From Pelagomonas calceolata (Eukaryota; Sar; Pelagophyceae; Pelagomonadales; Pelagomonadaceae), in contig CAKKNE010000004.1 in the NCBI GenBank assembly GCA_918797485.1, positions 1,116,001-1,180,000 on the forward strand: DNA of 64,000 nucleotides. The letters run 5' to 3'. The position numbers were made by a program, and so were the translations under genes. The first letter of the stretch is position 1. Each line of letters begins with the position of its first letter. Below are positions 27,467-64,000 of the stretch, in pieces. A model generated the notes under the pieces. That model searched no databases. It saw only the letters and a list, made by a program, of their open reading frames with translations, and was not told the origin of the DNA.

Positions 27467-29306
27467 TTACCCGATCCGCCAGCGGCACGCCTCGCGCCGC
27501 AGCGCCGCGACCATCTCCTTCGCGAGGCCCCGGCCGCCCATGGCCTCTATCGTCCAGACACTACCTTCGTTCGAAGCCCTCCCTTCCCGTCCAGTGCCCG
27601 CAAATAGCGCCCCCAACGCCGCGCCGTTCATACCCAACAACTCCTTGCCCGTCGTGCCCTCGGGCACGACGACGTGCGAGAAGCGCCCGTTTTCGGCCGT
27701 GAGGAGCCAGCGATGGAACCTGTGTGGAAATCAACCAGTGAGCTAGGTTAGACTTTCGCGAACCTCCACGCCATCGAGCAGGCCCACTCACGGAGATAGC
27801 ATCGCATCGATTTGATTTCCACACGGGGTGGAACTGCTCCGCGCCCCACTCCATGGGATCGCCGCCGACCACCGAGCCCGTCTCGGCGAACAGTCGCGAC
27901 GTCTCCACCACGGACTTGGTCATCAGGTCAGGAGCCATGAGGCAGACCGTCTCCAGCGAGTAGAGGGAATGAATGAGATCCTCGGGCGCCGCTGATAATG
28001 TGGAGACGATGGCCACGGAGCACTCGTCGAAGCATTTCCGCAAGACCCGCGTCAAGTTATGAGCTCGATACGGGATCCGCCGCCCCTCGTAGCGCGCCCT
28101 AAAACAATCCTTGAGCGCCATCAGGCTCAAGTTAATGTCCGCGGACTCGCGCTGGTGCTGCCGGCCCCTCATTTGCATCGTCTCCCACTTCCGTTCCGAC
28201 CCGGCGAGGTCCACGAAGGTCATGGTCACGTCATTGATGGAGATTTCGACGACGGCGTGCGACCTTGAGGATGCCGCGTTCCGTTCCGTCTGTACTGAAC
28301 TTCGTAATGCAAGGCCCTCGTCCAGAGTGTTTCGCAACGCCTTGCTATCAGGACAGACGCGCGGCGGCGCGCCCTTGAAATGAACTACATCATTGCTATC
28401 ACTCAGCAGCTTTACTGATGACGCGTCGTTCAGCAGATCCCGACAAGCTTTCCCTGCCAGCTCCACGAAGCGCACTGTACATTCAGTGTCTATCCTGGAT
28501 ACGAAGCGCGTCAACGCCTCTCTCAGAGTATGCGTCTTCCCGGTCCCCGTCTGCCCAAAAAGTAACAGCGTCGCCGCGCTGCCTCGCAGGACGTCGTCGA
28601 TCAATGGGTCGACGACCTTCTCCAGGACTTCTGTCGATGAGCGCTCGAAGACGCCGTCGACCGCCACGCGATGGTGCCGGCACGCGAACGTCCGATGTGA
28701 GCGGCTCAGCTTCGCCTCGTGTAGCATGACGGCGTCGCCGCTCGACCGCTCGACTACGCGGACCGATCCCTCGCCAGCGGTAGGTCGTATCCGCGCGTAG
28801 ATCTTCACACCGCCGTCGCGCCGCTCCTTGCACGCGTTTTCCTCCGGCGGCGACGGCCTGGACGCGGCGTGCGGACCGGCCACACGGGCCGACGGCGGCG
28901 CCAACCTCGACACGGGCTTCGCCGCGCCGCCCTCGCGCCGGCGGATCGCCTCATTAACCACAAGGTCCGCGGTGGGCTCGGCGAACTCCCCTATCAAAGC
29001 CACGGTCTCCTTCGGTAGCGGTAAAGCGCCTTGCTCGTGGCCCTGGGCCAAGACTTCGGCGCGCCAGAAGGCGTTGATCGATGCTGCTAGTAATTTTGAG
29101 TGTCTCTCAGCTACTTCCCGCTCGTAGAGCAGGCGTCGCGCGTCTTCTTTGCCCTGGAGGTCCCACGCCGCCTCCTGGCGCGCGCGCGCTTCGGCGTTCC
29201 TCGGGGCGTCTCGTAGCAATTCGTCGAGGGTCTCTTCCGCCGTTGGCGTCGTCGACGCCGCTTCCGGGTGTGCTGTCGACGCTTCCGGTCTTGCTGTCGA
29301 CGCCAT
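27467..29306 (-). CDS. Kinesin motor protein, kinesin-13-like
   Basis: Two exons, 29306-27835 and 27719-27467, coding 574 residues. The motor domain spans about residues 170-470: VKIYARIRPTAG, P-loop FGQTGTGKTHTL, switch I NAASSRSHAVVEI, switch [14 protein letters not shown], and DINLSLMALKDCF. A 165-residue N-terminal region and a short C-terminal domain flank it, a central-motor plan as in kinesin-13 microtubule depolymerases. The splice rule (donor at the 8-mer GTTCCACC) gives GAEQFHRWLLTAENGRF and the conserved-looking end VVVPEGTTGKELLGMNG. Retaining the intron keeps an open frame but gives unrelated sequence. Acts on microtubules in spindle or flagellum. Confidence 0.85.
27720..27834 (-). 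mobile_element. Introner (family 1) in the kinesin-13-like gene
   Basis: A 115-bp intron. Donor 8-mer GTTCCACC and first exon bases after the acceptor GTTCCATC match at 7 of 8, a target-site duplication. The element runs CCGTGTGGAAATCAA to TTGATTTCCACACAG, near-perfect terminal inverted repeats. An internal TGCTCGATGGCGTGG piece is the hairpin module. Phase 2. Confidence 0.9.
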
Positions 29307-39247: not shown

Positions 39248-42108
39248 ATGCCTCCGAAGGGCGACGAGGACTTCGTGCCCAAGAAGAAGGAGGGCGAATG
39301 TGTGAAAGTCGTCGTGCGCGTAAGACCGCTCTCCAGGAAGGAGATCCAGGACGGCCACGACGAAGCTACAAAAGCTGATGAGGATAGCGGTAGAATAACC
39401 TGCCAGAACCCGAAGGCCGATGCGGACGAGCCGCCCAAGACCTTTACGTTCGATGCGGTGTTTGCCCCAACAATAACCCAGAGGAAGCTGTACGACGTCT
39501 GTTCCGCGCCGGTTGTTGCTTCCGTCTTGGAAGGATTCAATGGGACGATCTTCGCCTACGGCCAGACGGGTGCCGGGAAAACGTTTACCATGGAGGGCGT
39601 GCAAGATCCCCCTGAATTGAGGGGCATCATCCCGAACGCGTTTCAACAAATATTCGACCGCGTCGCGTTAGCGGCAGAAGGCGTGCAATTTTTAGTCAGA
39701 GCCTCCTACCTCGAGATCTACAACGAGGAGGTGCGCGACCTGCTGGCCAAGGACCCGAAGAACCGGCTCGACCTCAAGGAGAACGTCGACTCAGGCGTCT
39801 ACGTCAAGGACCTGACGTCGTTCATCGTCCGATCGCGGCGTCCCGTGCGGTGCCTTCGACTCGTCTGCAGGAATGATGGCCGTGGGTGGTTTTATTTTCG
39901 AGTTCCGCGCAGGTGAAGTCCTCGCACGAAATTGATCAAGTGATGCAGGCGGGCAAGAAGAACCGGAGCGTGGGCGCGACGGCGATGAATGCTGGCTCTT
40001 CCAGATCACATGCCATTTTTACGATCATCGTCGAGTGCTGCGATTCGACGGGTACGGTCCGAACTGGCGAGCACATTACCGTCGGGAAGCTGAATCTGGT
40101 CGATCTCGCCGGTAGTGAACGACAGTCGAAGACGCAGGCTACCGGTGATCGGCTCAAGGAGGCCACGAAGATCAATTTGTCGCTGTCTGCGCTGGGGAAC
40201 GTCATCAGTGCTCTAGTCGACGGCAAGTCGCAGCACATTCCCTACCGCGACTCGAAACTCACAAGATTGCTCCAGGACTCGCTGGGCGGGAACACGAAGA
40301 CCGTCATGTGCGCGAACTGCGGCCCCGCGGGCTACAACTACGACGAGACCGTGTCGACGCTGCGCTACGCTAATAGAGCCAAGAACATCAAGAACAAGCC
40401 CAAGATCAACGAGGACCCGAAGGACGCCATGCTCCGCGAGTTCCAGGACGAGATCGCCCGCCTCAAGGCGCAGCTCCAAGGGAAGGGGACGTACGACGAG
40501 AACGGCGAGTGGCAGGGTGCGGACTCGGCGTCCCGTCACGCCATCGACGCGACTCGCCTCTAGGGTTTCTTTGTCGATCTTGGGCCGCTTCGGACCACGC
40601 GAGCGTCTTCCGCGCCCCGCAGGCGAGCAGAAGGAGTACAAGGAGGTGGAAAAGATCGTCCACAAGGAGGTCATCAAGGAGGTGACCGTGGGCGTGTCCG
40701 AGGAGGAGCTGTCGAAGGTCCGCGGCCGTGTGGAAATCGACCGGTGAGCGTCGCGGAAGCTCACTCGCGCCGATGGCGTGGAAGCGCAACGCCATCGAGC
40801 AGACGCAGTCACGGGGACAACGTCGCGTCGATGGCGTGGAATCTACACGCCATCGAGCAGACGCAGGAATGGGGGCAATCTCGCGTCGATGGCGTGGAAT
40901 CTACACGCCATCGAGCACATGCAGTCACGGGGACAACATCGCCGCGCAGGTCCACGCCGAGGCGGAGCGGAAGAAGGAGGAGATCCGTGAGCGGGCCGAG
41001 CGCCAGCTCGCCGCCGAGTTGGAGCGCCAGGCCGCGACGGAAGAGGAGCGCGAGCGCCTCCGGGCCGACCTCGTCCGCCAAGAGACGGAGCGCAAGAACG
41101 CGTCGCAGCGGAAACGCCAACTAGCGGCCAAACTGAAAGGCATGGAGAACAAGTTGTTGAAAGGAGGGCAATTGTTGGACAAAGCCGCCACCCAGGAAGC
41201 CGAGCTGCGGAAGGCCAAGCAGGAGCTCACGCGCAAGCAAGAAGCCGAGAGGAGGATGGCGAACGAGATGCGCGCGCCCGTGTCCTTCGCGAGCCTCCAC
41301 GCCATCGAGCCGGCGACAACGTCGATGGCGTGGAACCTGTGAGCCTCCACGCCATCGAGCAGATGCAGTTGCGGGGACGACGTCGCGTCGGTGGCGGAGA
41401 ACCTCCACTCCATCGAGCAGACACAACCACGGTCATCGACGCGTCGACGCCATCGAGCAGATGCACATGTGATTCCCACGCAGGCGGGACCAGGAGTCCA
41501 AGAAGGCCGAGGCCGAAGAAAAATTCGGGTCCATCGAGGAGGAAGTGGAAAAGAAGACGCGGAAGCTCGAGAAACTCATAAGAAAAGTCTCCGAGGCGGA
41601 GCGGGAAGTGTCCGATCTCAGTTCCGAATTTCAAAGAGAGCGCGAGGAGATGTTGGACACTATTAGACAGTTAGCGAGACAAATAAAACTGAAGGATTGT
41701 ATCTTGGAGGGCTTTGCTCCATCGCACAAAGTGAAACAGCTCGAAGCACGAGCCGAGTGGAATGATGACACTTGGCGGCTGAAGCCCCTCGAAAACACAT
41801 TGATAAGGAGGCCGCACTCCACCAAAGGCTTGCGGCGGCCCGAGACGGAGTATGCACGCCATAGAGCGCAGTACGACCCCGATACTCGTTATAAAGCCGA
41901 GAACATCGTGTTGCTGGATCTCGAGAACGTGGAACGGACGACGCAGGACTACGCGGGGCCGGACATGCGGAGCCACTGTCAGGTTATTCTGGAGACGTCT
42001 CTCGATCAAGAGGATGTGTATGTCGAGGGCGCGGGGCCGCGCGTCGACGTCGTCGACGAGGAGCCCGTCGTGCGGCCGCGGACGGGCCGAAGGCGGGCGC
42101 GGCGCTAG
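39248..42108 (+). CDS. Kinesin-2 motor (KIF3/FLA10 type, intraflagellar transport)
   Basis: Five exons: 39248-39826, 39913-40516, 40623-40717, 40950-41269 and 41484-42108, coding 740 residues. The motor has [43 protein letters not shown] and [14 protein letters not shown]. Then come a KIF3-type neck and coiled coil ([20 protein letters not shown]) and a tail matching KIF3 ([33 protein letters not shown], ending [11 protein letters not shown]). KIF3 continuity fixes the splices: [42 protein letters not shown]. It drives anterograde intraflagellar transport, so the cell probably builds a flagellum. All four introns look like introners. Confidence 0.9.
39827..39912 (+). mobile_element. Introner (family 2), kinesin-2 intron 1
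   Basis: An 86-bp intron: donor 8-mer GTCCGATC, then GCGGCGTCCCGTGCGGTGCC, the core CTGCAGGAATGATGG and GTGGGTGGTTT, ending TTCCGCGCAG. The exon 8-mer GTGAAGTC matches at 4 of 8. Core shared with the PSMB2 intron. Phase 0. Confidence 0.8.
40517..40622 (+). mobile_element. Introner (family 2), kinesin-2 intron 2
   Basis: A 106-bp intron: donor 8-mer GTGCGGAC, then TCGGCGTCCCGTCACGCCAT, the CGACGCGACTCGCCTC module and TTTCTTTGTCGATCTTGGGC, ending CGCCCCGCAG. Target copies are not preserved. Phase 1. Confidence 0.75.
40718..40949 (+). mobile_element. Introner (family 1) with a triple hairpin array, kinesin-2 intron 3
   Basis: A 232-bp intron. Donor 8-mer GTCCGCGG and exon 8-mer GTCCACGC agree at 6 of 8. 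The element starts CCGTGTGGAAATCGACC. Inside, three tandem units of about 58 bp each contain GATGGCGTGGAA, a short loop, ACGCCATCGAGCA and a GGGGACAACGTCGCG-like tail. It ends ATCGCCGCGCAG. Phase 0. Confidence 0.85.
41270..41483 (+). mobile_element. Introner (family 1), kinesin-2 intron 4, probable GC donor
   Basis: A 214-bp intron ending TGTGATTCCCACGCAG, the family 1 3' end. Under the target rule it begins with GCGCGCGC, then CCGTGTCCTTC, giving a GC-AG intron in the right phase (2). A GT donor at 41280 would also keep the frame, adding four residues. Several diverged hairpin modules are inside. Confidence 0.7.
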
Positions 42109-56771: not shown

Positions 56772-57914
56772 CTAGATGGCCTTCCCCATCTCCTTGAACG
56801 CCTTGACCATCGTCGCCCCGAGCTGCGCCGGGCTTCTAGAAATGTAGACGCCCGCGTCCTCGAACGCCTCGAACTTCGCCTGCGCCGTGCCCTTGCCGCC
56901 GCTCACCAAAGCGCCGGCGTGGCCCATTCTACGCCCGGGAGGAGCGGTCGTGCCCGCGACGAAGCCGACGACGGGCTTGGACGGATCTCCATTCTGTTTA
57001 AGCCACTCGGCGGCCTCTTCCTCGGCCGAGCCGCCAATTTCTCCGATCATGATGATGCCCTCCGTCTCCGGGTCGTTCGTGAACCGCTCCAGACAATCAA
57101 TAAAGTTCGTGCCGTTGAAGGGGTCGCCGCCGATGCCCACACAGGTGGATTGTCCTAATCCAGCAACGGTCGTCTGATGGACAGCTTCATAAGTCAACGT
57201 GCCAGAACGAGAAACAACCCCAATCTTGCCCTTGGCGTGGATGTAGCCCGGCATGATGCCGATCTTGCACTCGCCGGGCTTGATGATACCAGGACAGTTC
57301 GGTCCTATTAATCTCGTGGCGGACTGCCTTTCTAAGTGATACTTGACCTCGACCTGCGTGGGAATCAACCAGTGAGTTAGGTTTCAACCTGAACGCCATC
57401 GAGCAGAGGCAGGAATGGAGGCAACCTCGCGTCGATGGCGTTAGCTCTACACGCCATCGAGCAGATGCAGTTACGGGGACGACGTCGCGTCGATGGCGTG
57501 GGGCGCCCAAAATTCGATTTCCACACGGATCTCGACCATGTCGTGCTGCGGCACGCCCTCCGTGATGGCCACGACGAGCCCGATCTCGTTCTCGATGGCG
57601 TCGAGGATCGCCGCCTTGCAGAAAGGAGGGGGGACGTAGATGACGGACGCGTCGGGTTTTACTTCCTGGACCGCTTCCTTGACGGAGTCGAAGACCGGCA
57701 AGCCGAGATGGGTCTGGCCGCCCTTCTTCGGCGTGACGCCGCCGACCATGTTCGTGCCGTACGCGATGGCCTGCTCGGAGTGGAAGGAGCCGGTCTTGCC
57801 CGTGAAGCCCTGGCAAATCACCCTCGTGTTCGCGTCGACCCAGACCTTGGCCGTGGCCGAGAGCCGGCGCGCGCCGCGCACCGGCGCCGCGCGCGCGAGC
57901 GCTGCGAGCCGCAT
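56772..57914 (-). CDS. SUCLG1: Succinyl-CoA ligase alpha subunit, mitochondrial
   Basis: Two exons, 57914-57537 and 57353-56772, coding 319 residues. It forms succinate, CoA and ATP or GTP from succinyl-CoA in the TCA cycle, with a beta subunit. [20 protein letters not shown] is a mitochondrial presequence. [20 protein letters not shown] is the CoA-binding Rossmann loop; [20 protein letters not shown] and [17 protein letters not shown] follow; [19 protein letters not shown] holds the catalytic phospho-His (GHAG). The exon joint [13 protein letters not shown] matches the family without insertion or loss, which fixes both splice sites. Confidence 0.95.
57354..57536 (-). mobile_element. Introner (family 1) in SUCLG1
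   Basis: A 183-bp intron. Donor 8-mer GTCGAGAT and exon 8-mer GTCGAGGT match at 7 of 8. The element runs CCGTGTGGAAATCGAA to TTGATTCCCACGCAG. Inside are two hairpin modules (ACGCCATCGACGCGA... to ...TGCTCGATGGCGT), opposite in orientation to those in the kinesin-2 gene. Phase 0. Confidence 0.92.
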
Positions 57915-63231: not shown

Positions 63232-64000
63232 TTAAGAAGAACTAGGCCGCAGCGCGAGGTGGACCGTCTGACCGTCTGCCAGGCCGCTCGCCGCCAGGGA
63301 GCCGTCCTCCAGGGGCTTGCCCCCGAAGATGAGGCGCTGCCGCTCCGCGGGCGCGTCGGCCAGGGCTGTTGCGATGGCGGCCTTGAGGTCGGCGACCGTG
63401 GACCCGCGGGCCACAGGCACAAACAACGCGTCGCCGGTCGAGCGCAGGACCCGCACCGCGAGCGCGCCGTCCGTGCCGTCGTCGCGCCCGCCGTCGGCGG
63501 CCCGCGCCCGCGCGGCCCGCCGCGCCATGAGCGCGAAGAGCGCCGACGGCGAGAGCGTGCGCAGCAGCCGCGCGAGCGTCGCCGCGGCGCCGGGCGCGAC
63601 GAGGCGCTCCGGCTGCCGGCGGTCCGCGGCGTCGATGAGCGCGCGCGCGACGGCCGCCGGGTCCGCGCCCGATGCCGTCGCGGCGTCGTTTTTGTCGTAG
63701 GCGCGGCCGTCGCCCGTCAGCGCGTGCAGGCTGTGGCCGGTCCGGATGTAGCCCGGCGCCACGACCGTGACCTGTGTGGAAATCAAAACTTCACGGCTTC
63801 ATCGCCGAAGCACCCGACACACTGGTTGATTCCCGCACAGACGGTGACCGACACGCGGGCCGCGGACTCGGCCGCGAGCTCGGCCCGCAGGGCGTCGAAG
63901 TAGCCGTGGAGCGCGTGCTTCGACGCCGCGTAGGCGGCGCGCTGGGGTAAACCGAAGTAGCCCTGCACCGAACTCACCACGACCACCCGCCCATCCCTCC
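63232..64000 (-). CDS. Short-chain dehydrogenase fused to a ubiquitin-like domain (5' end beyond window)
   Basis: Exon 63849 to beyond 64000, and last exon 63771-63232. The visible SDR part has VVVSSVQGYFGLPQRAAYAA with SKHAL (catalytic Ser, and Tyr-x3-Lys) and, across the splice, VSVTVVAPGYIRTGHS. The Rossmann start lies outside the window. After a helical linker, the last 80 residues are ubiquitin-like: LAVRVLRSTGDALFVPVARG, STVADLKAAIATAL, RQRLIFGGKPLEDG and GLADGQTVHLALRP. It lacks a terminal Gly-Gly (ends RPSSS), so it is a fixed domain, not a conjugated modifier. SDRs of this type (DHRS7-like) are often ER membrane enzymes. The fusion may tie it to proteasome or p97 partners. Confidence 0.8.
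63772..63848 (-). mobile_element. Introner (family 1) in the SDR-ubiquitin-like gene
   Basis: A 77-bp intron. Donor 8-mer GTCACCGT and exon 8-mer GTCACGGT match at 7 of 8. The element runs CTGTGCGGGAATCAACC to TTTTGATTTCCACACAG with terminal inverted repeats and almost no interior, so it may be close to the minimal unit. Phase 0. Confidence 0.9.

Follow-up and report, generated by a model that had tools for sequence, protein, structure and literature searches.

A family of introners in Pelagomonas calceolata with the predicted splice donor in a duplicated 8-bp target and the acceptor in the element

Introduction

Introner elements in Aureococcus anophagefferens were reportedly described by Huff, Zilberman and Roy in 2016. 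The part of PMC7789003 available to us gives Aureococcus introners direct and inverted repeats of constant length together with canonical splice motifs, and the accessible text of PMC10228655 states that co-opted splice sites serve the introners of Huff et al., which insert in either orientation. For Symbiodinium microadriaticum, the portion of PMC9860276 at hand places the donor in the target duplication and lets the element carry the acceptor (Fig. 2B legend), and the same portion reports gene-biased insertion for introners. The mechanism, introners that are DNA transposons, is already known from Aureococcus and others. A related question concerns GC-AG introns: the excerpt of PMC3033335 that we could consult puts them at 39.6% in Aureococcus and 22.2% in Micromonas pusilla, calls their origin an enigma and itself points to high G+C content.

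For P. calceolata RCC100, the consulted portion of PMC9481584 describes a genome of 32.4 Mb, with six nuclear contigs, one contig for each organelle (plastid and mitochondrion) and duplicated ends shared by contigs 1 and 5, and attributes a peak of intron lengths at ~210 bp to introner elements. This was the only paper that we found on pelagophyte introners, and a search for P. calceolata introns together with transposable elements found no report; Supplementary Note 3 of PMC9481584 may already describe some of the anatomy given here.

The elements analysed below compare closely with these systems. With the introners of Aureococcus anophagefferens, an alga of the same class, they share inverted repeats, direct repeats of constant length, both orientations and co-opted splice sites; Aureococcus splice motifs, however, are canonical in the accessible part of PMC7789003, whereas 20-28% of donors here are GC, a comparison made by description and not by sequence. 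With those of Symbiodinium microadriaticum, as far as the available text of PMC9860276 goes, they share a donor in the target copy, an acceptor in the element and terminal inverted repeats, but the duplication is 4 bp there and 8 bp here. The elements behind the RCC100 peak, for which the portion of PMC9481584 at hand gives the length peak alone, are very probably the same as ours: the published ~210 bp matches our commonest element, because 203 + 8 = 211. What we add are the GC donors and the observation that, in the sets examined, there are almost no copies whose target lacks GY (GT or GC) and no non-coding copies.

Results

Introns of the window

The window, the whole stretch of DNA that was analysed, spans 64,000 nucleotides of contig C4 of the P. 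calceolata assembly (C4:1116001-1180000). An earlier note had described three introns here, in SUCLG1, in a kinesin gene and in a short-chain dehydrogenase (SDR) gene, as starting with an 8-mer that recurs at the start of the next exon, the remainder being an element with terminal inverted repeats. The minus-strand sequence bears this anatomy out at all three sites: each reads 8-mer, element, 8-mer, each pair of 8-mers is 7/8 identical, and the inverted repeats are present at the element ends (Table 1). The acceptor-side repeat of SUCLG1 has one mismatch against CYGTGYGGRAATC read inward but fits the GATTYCCRCRCAG given earlier. That exact removal of the intron restores the SUCLG1 frame, as had also been claimed, proved correct, and the homologues that were aligned run without a gap over the junction; the spliced product aligns to 1euc_A, a solved succinyl-CoA synthetase alpha chain, at 471 bits with no gap at the junction, and the unspliced frame meets a stop soon past it. 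Pfam domains confirmed all three gene assignments (succinyl-CoA ligase for SUCLG1, kinesin motor, short-chain dehydrogenase). In the kinesin gene the PF00225 match lies upstream of the junction, and in the SDR gene the PF00106 match covers residues 2-63, with the junction at residue 50.

Table 1. Predicted introner-derived introns of the window and their parts (positions in the window; identities are between the two target copies).
Feature	Position	Strand	Sequence or identity	Basis
SUCLG1 intron, 183 nt, phase 0	57354-57536	-		removal gives a 319-aa open frame; retention gives a stop
SUCLG1 5' target copy with donor	57529-57536	-	GTCGAGAT	sequence
SUCLG1 element, 175 bp	57354-57528	-	CCGTGTGGAAATC ... 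GATTCCCACGCAG	sequence
SUCLG1 exon target copy	57346-57353	-	GTCGAGGT, 7/8	sequence
Kinesin-gene intron, 115 nt	27720-27834	-		585-aa open frame across the junction after exact removal
Kinesin-gene element, 107 bp	27720-27826	-		
Kinesin-gene donor copy	27827-27834	-	GTTCCACC	
Kinesin-gene exon target copy	27712-27719	-	GTTCCATC, 7/8	sequence
SDR-gene intron, 77 nt	63772-63848	-		229-aa open frame after exact removal, truncated at the edge of the window; junction inside the PF00106 match
SDR-gene element, 69 bp	63772-63840	-		
SDR-gene donor copy	63841-63848	-	GTCACCGT	
SDR-gene exon target copy	63764-63771	-	GTCACGGT, 7/8	sequence
Additional intron, 232 nt, GT donor copy	40718-40949	+	GTCCGCGG	frame restored
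Exon copy of the 40718-40949 intron	40950-40957	+	GTCCACGC, 6/8	
Additional intron, GC donor copy (donor end inferred)	41270-41483	+	GCGCGCGC	frame restored
Exon copy of the 41270-41483 intron	41484-41491	+	GCGGGACC, 5/8 by eye	

All nine aligned relatives of SUCLG1, chosen from 120 among the matches listed (the nearest 95% identical) and mostly carrying no statement of genomic-DNA or RNA origin, are continuous at the intron site. Relative P0003 has 47 extra residues after GLGQ, and P0005 has extra residues before FTGK; in both, introns that related algae have at other positions were probably left unspliced. Because the extra residues resemble unspliced introns, the two sequences appear to derive from genomic DNA, and neither is interrupted at the SUCLG1 site. 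RNA-folding z-scores of the three introns are -0.86 for kinesin, -1.12 for SDR and -2.86 for SUCLG1; pairing of the inverted repeats is to be expected and does not count as evidence here.

Two further introns of the same family, absent from the earlier finding, lie in the window in a plus-strand gene whose kinesin type was judged by eye from its translation, and taking out both of them gives this gene a continuous frame. The acceptor-side repeat of the first (40718-40949) carries four mismatches. The frame of the same gene is also broken by an element-like core sequence at ~40520-40620 (plus strand) with no recognisable repeats or ends; this stretch is probably an older introner.

Element family and target duplication

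Across the assembly (32,445,274 bases in 8 contigs; 32.4 Mb), CYGTGYGGRAATC has 1,004 + 987 = 1,991 exact matches, vs. 1 + 2 for a reversed control pattern. We assembled a set of 76 elements bounded by their repeats alone (at most one mismatch at one end, at most three at the other, 35-450 bp); seven left ends that had no partner were dropped. Fifty-eight of these elements came from 60 stretches at the first exact left ends on contig C1, among the matches listed (100 of 1,991). Another 11 lay in 21 regions picked irrespective of elements, namely the window and 20 C1 tiles at even spacing, and the last seven in loci chosen by pattern. The duplication falls below 6/8 in 17 of the 76, which are kept in the counts unless stated otherwise.

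The earlier note had proposed, as a check set in advance, that 8-bp duplications should be in excess around the repeat ends, and such an excess is what we found: the flanking 8-mers are identical at 7 or 8 positions in 54 of the 76 elements, vs. a mean of 1.35 and a maximum of 7 in 1,000 shuffles, and in 51/73 when the three elements of the original finding are left out. Over all 76 elements, flank identity runs at 0.76-0.88 at positions 0-7 vs. 0.28-0.53 in shuffled flanks, and it is at the shuffled level directly outside; the target duplication is exactly 8 bp. The terminal inverted repeats measure ~13 bp (CYGTGYGGRAATC...GATTYCCRCRCAG), the outermost triplet being CTG at one end and CAG at the other, and the elements are 48-224 bp long in the copies studied, most commonly 203 bp. 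The family shows the traits of DNA-transposon introners: many like copies in unrelated genes, inverted repeats, a target duplication of fixed length and, at the level of sequence, a splice site co-opted from the target with the length of the mRNA unchanged. The observation made in the window is confirmed as real and general in the P. calceolata genome. A scan of viral contigs with the pattern gave seven matches, which we judged to be chance for a 16-mer; a phage search gave none.

Donor and acceptor on the coding strand

Coding strand and phase of the flanks were scored with a codon model, whose training set was 118 long open frames from the same 21 regions in which 11 of the 76 elements lie; left and right flanks were scored separately, with the target copies left out. 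For 61 of the 76 elements, exact removal is consistent with the strand and codon phase called at each flank (p = 7e-34, with a chance of 1/6 each). On the coding strand, these 61 frame-coherent elements have the donor GT in 49 cases and GC in 12, and the acceptor is CAG in all 61. The earlier claim that the donor lies in the duplicated target and the AG acceptor in the element is supported, and applies to 61/61; it needs refining in that the donor is GY and not only GT. The 15 elements that are not frame-coherent comprise seven with a duplication of 6-8/8 and eight with less than 6/8; one of them with a weak duplication (L034) becomes understandable once the donor-side repeat is shifted by one base.

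We also considered whether these sequences might not be introns at all, and be instead repeats retained in coding sequence or pseudogenes. Retention breaks the frame in 58 of the 61 frame-coherent elements; in SUCLG1, a conserved enzyme, the homologues that were aligned run continuously across the site; and the published annotation, in the part of PMC9481584 that we have, contains an intron-length peak at ~210 bp. Against these observations we regard retained repeats as extremely unlikely.

Among the 59 elements with a duplication of at least 6/8, GY is present on at least one strand of the 5' copy in 59/59, vs. a background of 31.5%. In a ~200-bp class drawn from the whole genome (181-211 bp, exact 8-base cores, far copy ending in a base other than C), a design that excludes far-end GY and misses changed ends and other lengths, the 146 strand-hits divide into GT 100, GC 39, GR 1 and non-G 6, vs. 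GT 8, GC 17, GR 22 and non-G 99 for random targets. The six non-G strand-hits are three elements read on both strands, whose 8-mer pairs match by eye at 4, 4 and 2 positions. In a class of short elements (first base not T, last base not A), a count by eye among the matches listed found the 5' copy to have GY on one strand or both at 25 of 26 places, two of the 26 being C5 duplicates; at the exception, C4:3375434, the two 8-mers are alike at only 3 positions.

GC donors make up 12/61 of the frame-coherent sample and 39/139 of the GY strand-hits in the ~200-bp class (20-28%). In coding sequence the dinucleotide GC is ~2.4 times commoner than GT (0.125 vs. 0.051), and the yield of GC relative to GT per available site is 0.2 in the ~200-bp class and 0.1 in the 61-element sample. 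By codon phase 0/1/2, GT donors number 29, 3 and 17 (p = 0.056 vs. coding availability, not significant) and GC donors 1, 5 and 6 (p = 0.106, not significant). There was no evidence of selection on a branch point, CTAAC near the A end being present in 5/26 cases when that end is the acceptor vs. 4/27 when it is not, nor on mean pyrimidine content at the two element ends (0.568 vs. 0.569).

The GY of the 5' copy could have been gained by mutation after insertion instead of being present in the target. This would suit the two elements of 61 whose exon copy is not GY (GG and GA), as well as two elements with a duplication of at least 6/8 that have GC in the exon and GT in the intron; the exon copy, however, also begins with GY in 59/61, and the intron copy does not clearly resemble the U1 consensus more closely than its exon counterpart does, so that we find such an origin very improbable. 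By a U1-like score, the intron copy is better than the exon copy in 7 cases, worse in 4 and equal in 16 where the duplication is 6-7/8, and better in 5, worse in 2 and equal in 2 where it is below 6/8; on these counts we do not claim that donors improved after insertion.

Orientation and constraint on the repeats

The end that lies at the acceptor is B in 30 of the 61 frame-coherent elements and A in 26 (5/61 unassigned), so orientation relative to the gene is balanced. As both element ends carry a CAG that can be read on one strand, the element works in either orientation. These results bear on a spread through RNA, in which introns would reverse splice into new transcripts and then be copied back to DNA. 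Reverse splicing keeps one orientation and is not known to make a target duplication. The sampled copies are indeed genic, coding-strand copies with proper splice sites, as such a route would have it, but it is contradicted by the balanced orientations, the inverted repeats and the exact 8-bp duplication, and we consider it hardly credible.

The two sides of the element differ at position 2 of the repeat, whose complement is the A of AG: it is intact in 27/27 right ends on the acceptor side and changed in 9/34 on the donor side (p = 0.003, uncorrected, 13 positions tested), and the other 12 positions of donor-side repeats together have changes in 14 of 408. Position 10 goes the opposite way (4/27 on the acceptor side vs. 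0/34 on the donor side, nominal p = 0.034). The simplest reading is that changes at position 2 are tolerated by the transposase and not by the spliceosome. Donor-side repeats often have CCG or CGG in place of CTG, as at 57516-57528 of the window, and the base affected is the one expected to pair with the acceptor A; this may reflect relaxed constraint or an acceptor released from the stem.

Transposase, empty sites and repeated targets

An 8-bp target duplication is typical of hAT transposons, and the introner family has this trait in common with them. Searches of the genome with Pfam profiles for hAT, KDZ, MULE and P-element transposases found none that carries the introner repeats. The KDZ, MULE and P-element profiles (PF18758, PF10551 and PF21787) had no match, the first and third of these searches being matchless in control genomes too. 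The sole hAT-type match (PF05699) is an open frame of 721 codons on the minus strand at C4:4499549-4503199 (loci L085, L093 and L094), with repeats of its own (CAGGGCAGCAGAAGGGCAA) and an 8-bp duplication of its own (TTGCTCGC); a profile search of this kind could miss a diverged or intron-split hAT transposase. We do not propose this gene as the mobiliser of the introners: the CAGGGCAGCAGAAGGGCAA repeats of the one hAT-type transposase found are unlike the introner ends.

Intronless paralogues, which would provide empty sites, were sought among the sampled loci, viral contigs left out, and only self-matches were found. Identical elements stand at C1:319762 and C5:319718 and at C1:362059 and C5:362009, within large duplicated chromosome ends; because the introners are shared there, these ends give no empty sites at the two places.

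Two cases of repeated targets came up among the loci. Two different elements of the family, 400 bp apart (L003:1499-1558 and L003:1959-2034), have the same 5' copy GTCTCGGG; their exon copies are GTCTCGGG and GTGTCGGG, they differ in codon phase, and their flanks are unrelated by eye. A further pair, at L004:1499-1546 and L004:1891-1938, is oppositely oriented and has the exon copy GCGAGTAC in common, which is perhaps a repeated protein motif.

Discussion

We propose that these introns are made by a symmetric DNA transposon filtered through splicing, an account that we hold to be highly probable. The repeats and the 8-bp duplication are observed, and the element would be a non-autonomous DNA transposon (MITE) that inserts by cut-and-paste, its presumed transposase duplicating 8 bp of the target. 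The GY donor, the CAG acceptor and the neutrality of orientation are likewise observed: the element ends in what would be a ready-made CAG acceptor on either strand, and the donor would come from the preceding copy wherever the coding strand of the duplicated 8-mer opens with GT or, in fewer cases, GC. The spliceosome would then take out one target copy together with the whole element, the remaining copy restoring the exon exactly; restoration of the frame is seen directly in the genes, and from reading frames and homology we infer splicing in RNA. Copies that cannot be spliced would not persist and would be purged. Some filter based on splicing is needed because a symmetric transposase is blind to the strand of the gene.

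One alternative is that insertion itself is restricted, with the transposase or chromatin favouring transcribed DNA and, within it, targets that have GY at one of their ends. We think this unlikely, though a serious possibility, and the evidence divides. The far (mirrored) end of the same 8-mers has GY in only 15/61 vs. a background of 17%, while the donor end has it in 61/61; the target need not have been chosen for GY. Positions 3-8 of the 41 GT targets with a duplication of at least 6/8 mostly resemble the coding background, with one nominal deviation (p = 0.048, position 7), and both element ends serve about equally as the donor side, so that a filter on the coding strand is still needed even if insertion is steered. 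On the other hand, GY was seen by eye at both ends in 24 of the first 76 elements among the matches listed, vs. 24% expected, and a mild far-end excess, hence some preference for the target, is possible. The near absence of unsuitable targets is also what steering would give, the ~200-bp class containing three non-G elements and one GR hit vs. GT 100 and GC 39.

Elements with both flanks non-coding number 0/59 among those with a duplication of at least 6/8, where 7.7 would be expected at random (13.1%), a deficit whose weight is limited by the cut-offs of the codon model and by sampling mostly on contig C1. Under simple purging, non-coding copies should be the majority, because insertions would be neutral outside coding sequence and only GY insertions would survive inside it; about two thirds of copies would then lie outside coding sequence. 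Purging alone does not explain the absence, among these 59 elements, of copies with both flanks non-coding: either non-coding insertions are also purged in a compact genome, or insertion is biased to genes. A further step would be an intron-making transposon, steered both to transcribed DNA and to GY targets, whose introns are made directly and not salvaged by purging; this idea we offer tentatively and regard as rather improbable. We keep to the transposon filtered through splicing as the preferred account. The lack of non-coding copies in the sample nevertheless stands as a quantitative puzzle, and if insertion does prove to be steered, integration itself would account for the dearth, in the sets examined, of copies that are non-coding or lack GY.

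In this family the birth of introns can be followed cleanly and counted: since the ancestral target is preserved in the exon copy, it becomes possible to measure how donors are chosen, how far GC is tolerated and how strongly copies are purged. GC donors appear to be tolerated at roughly 0.1-0.2 of the GT rate, which offers a simple account of GC-AG introns, and it is possible that the high proportions of GC-AG introns in Aureococcus and in Micromonas pusilla stem from GC donors of introners.
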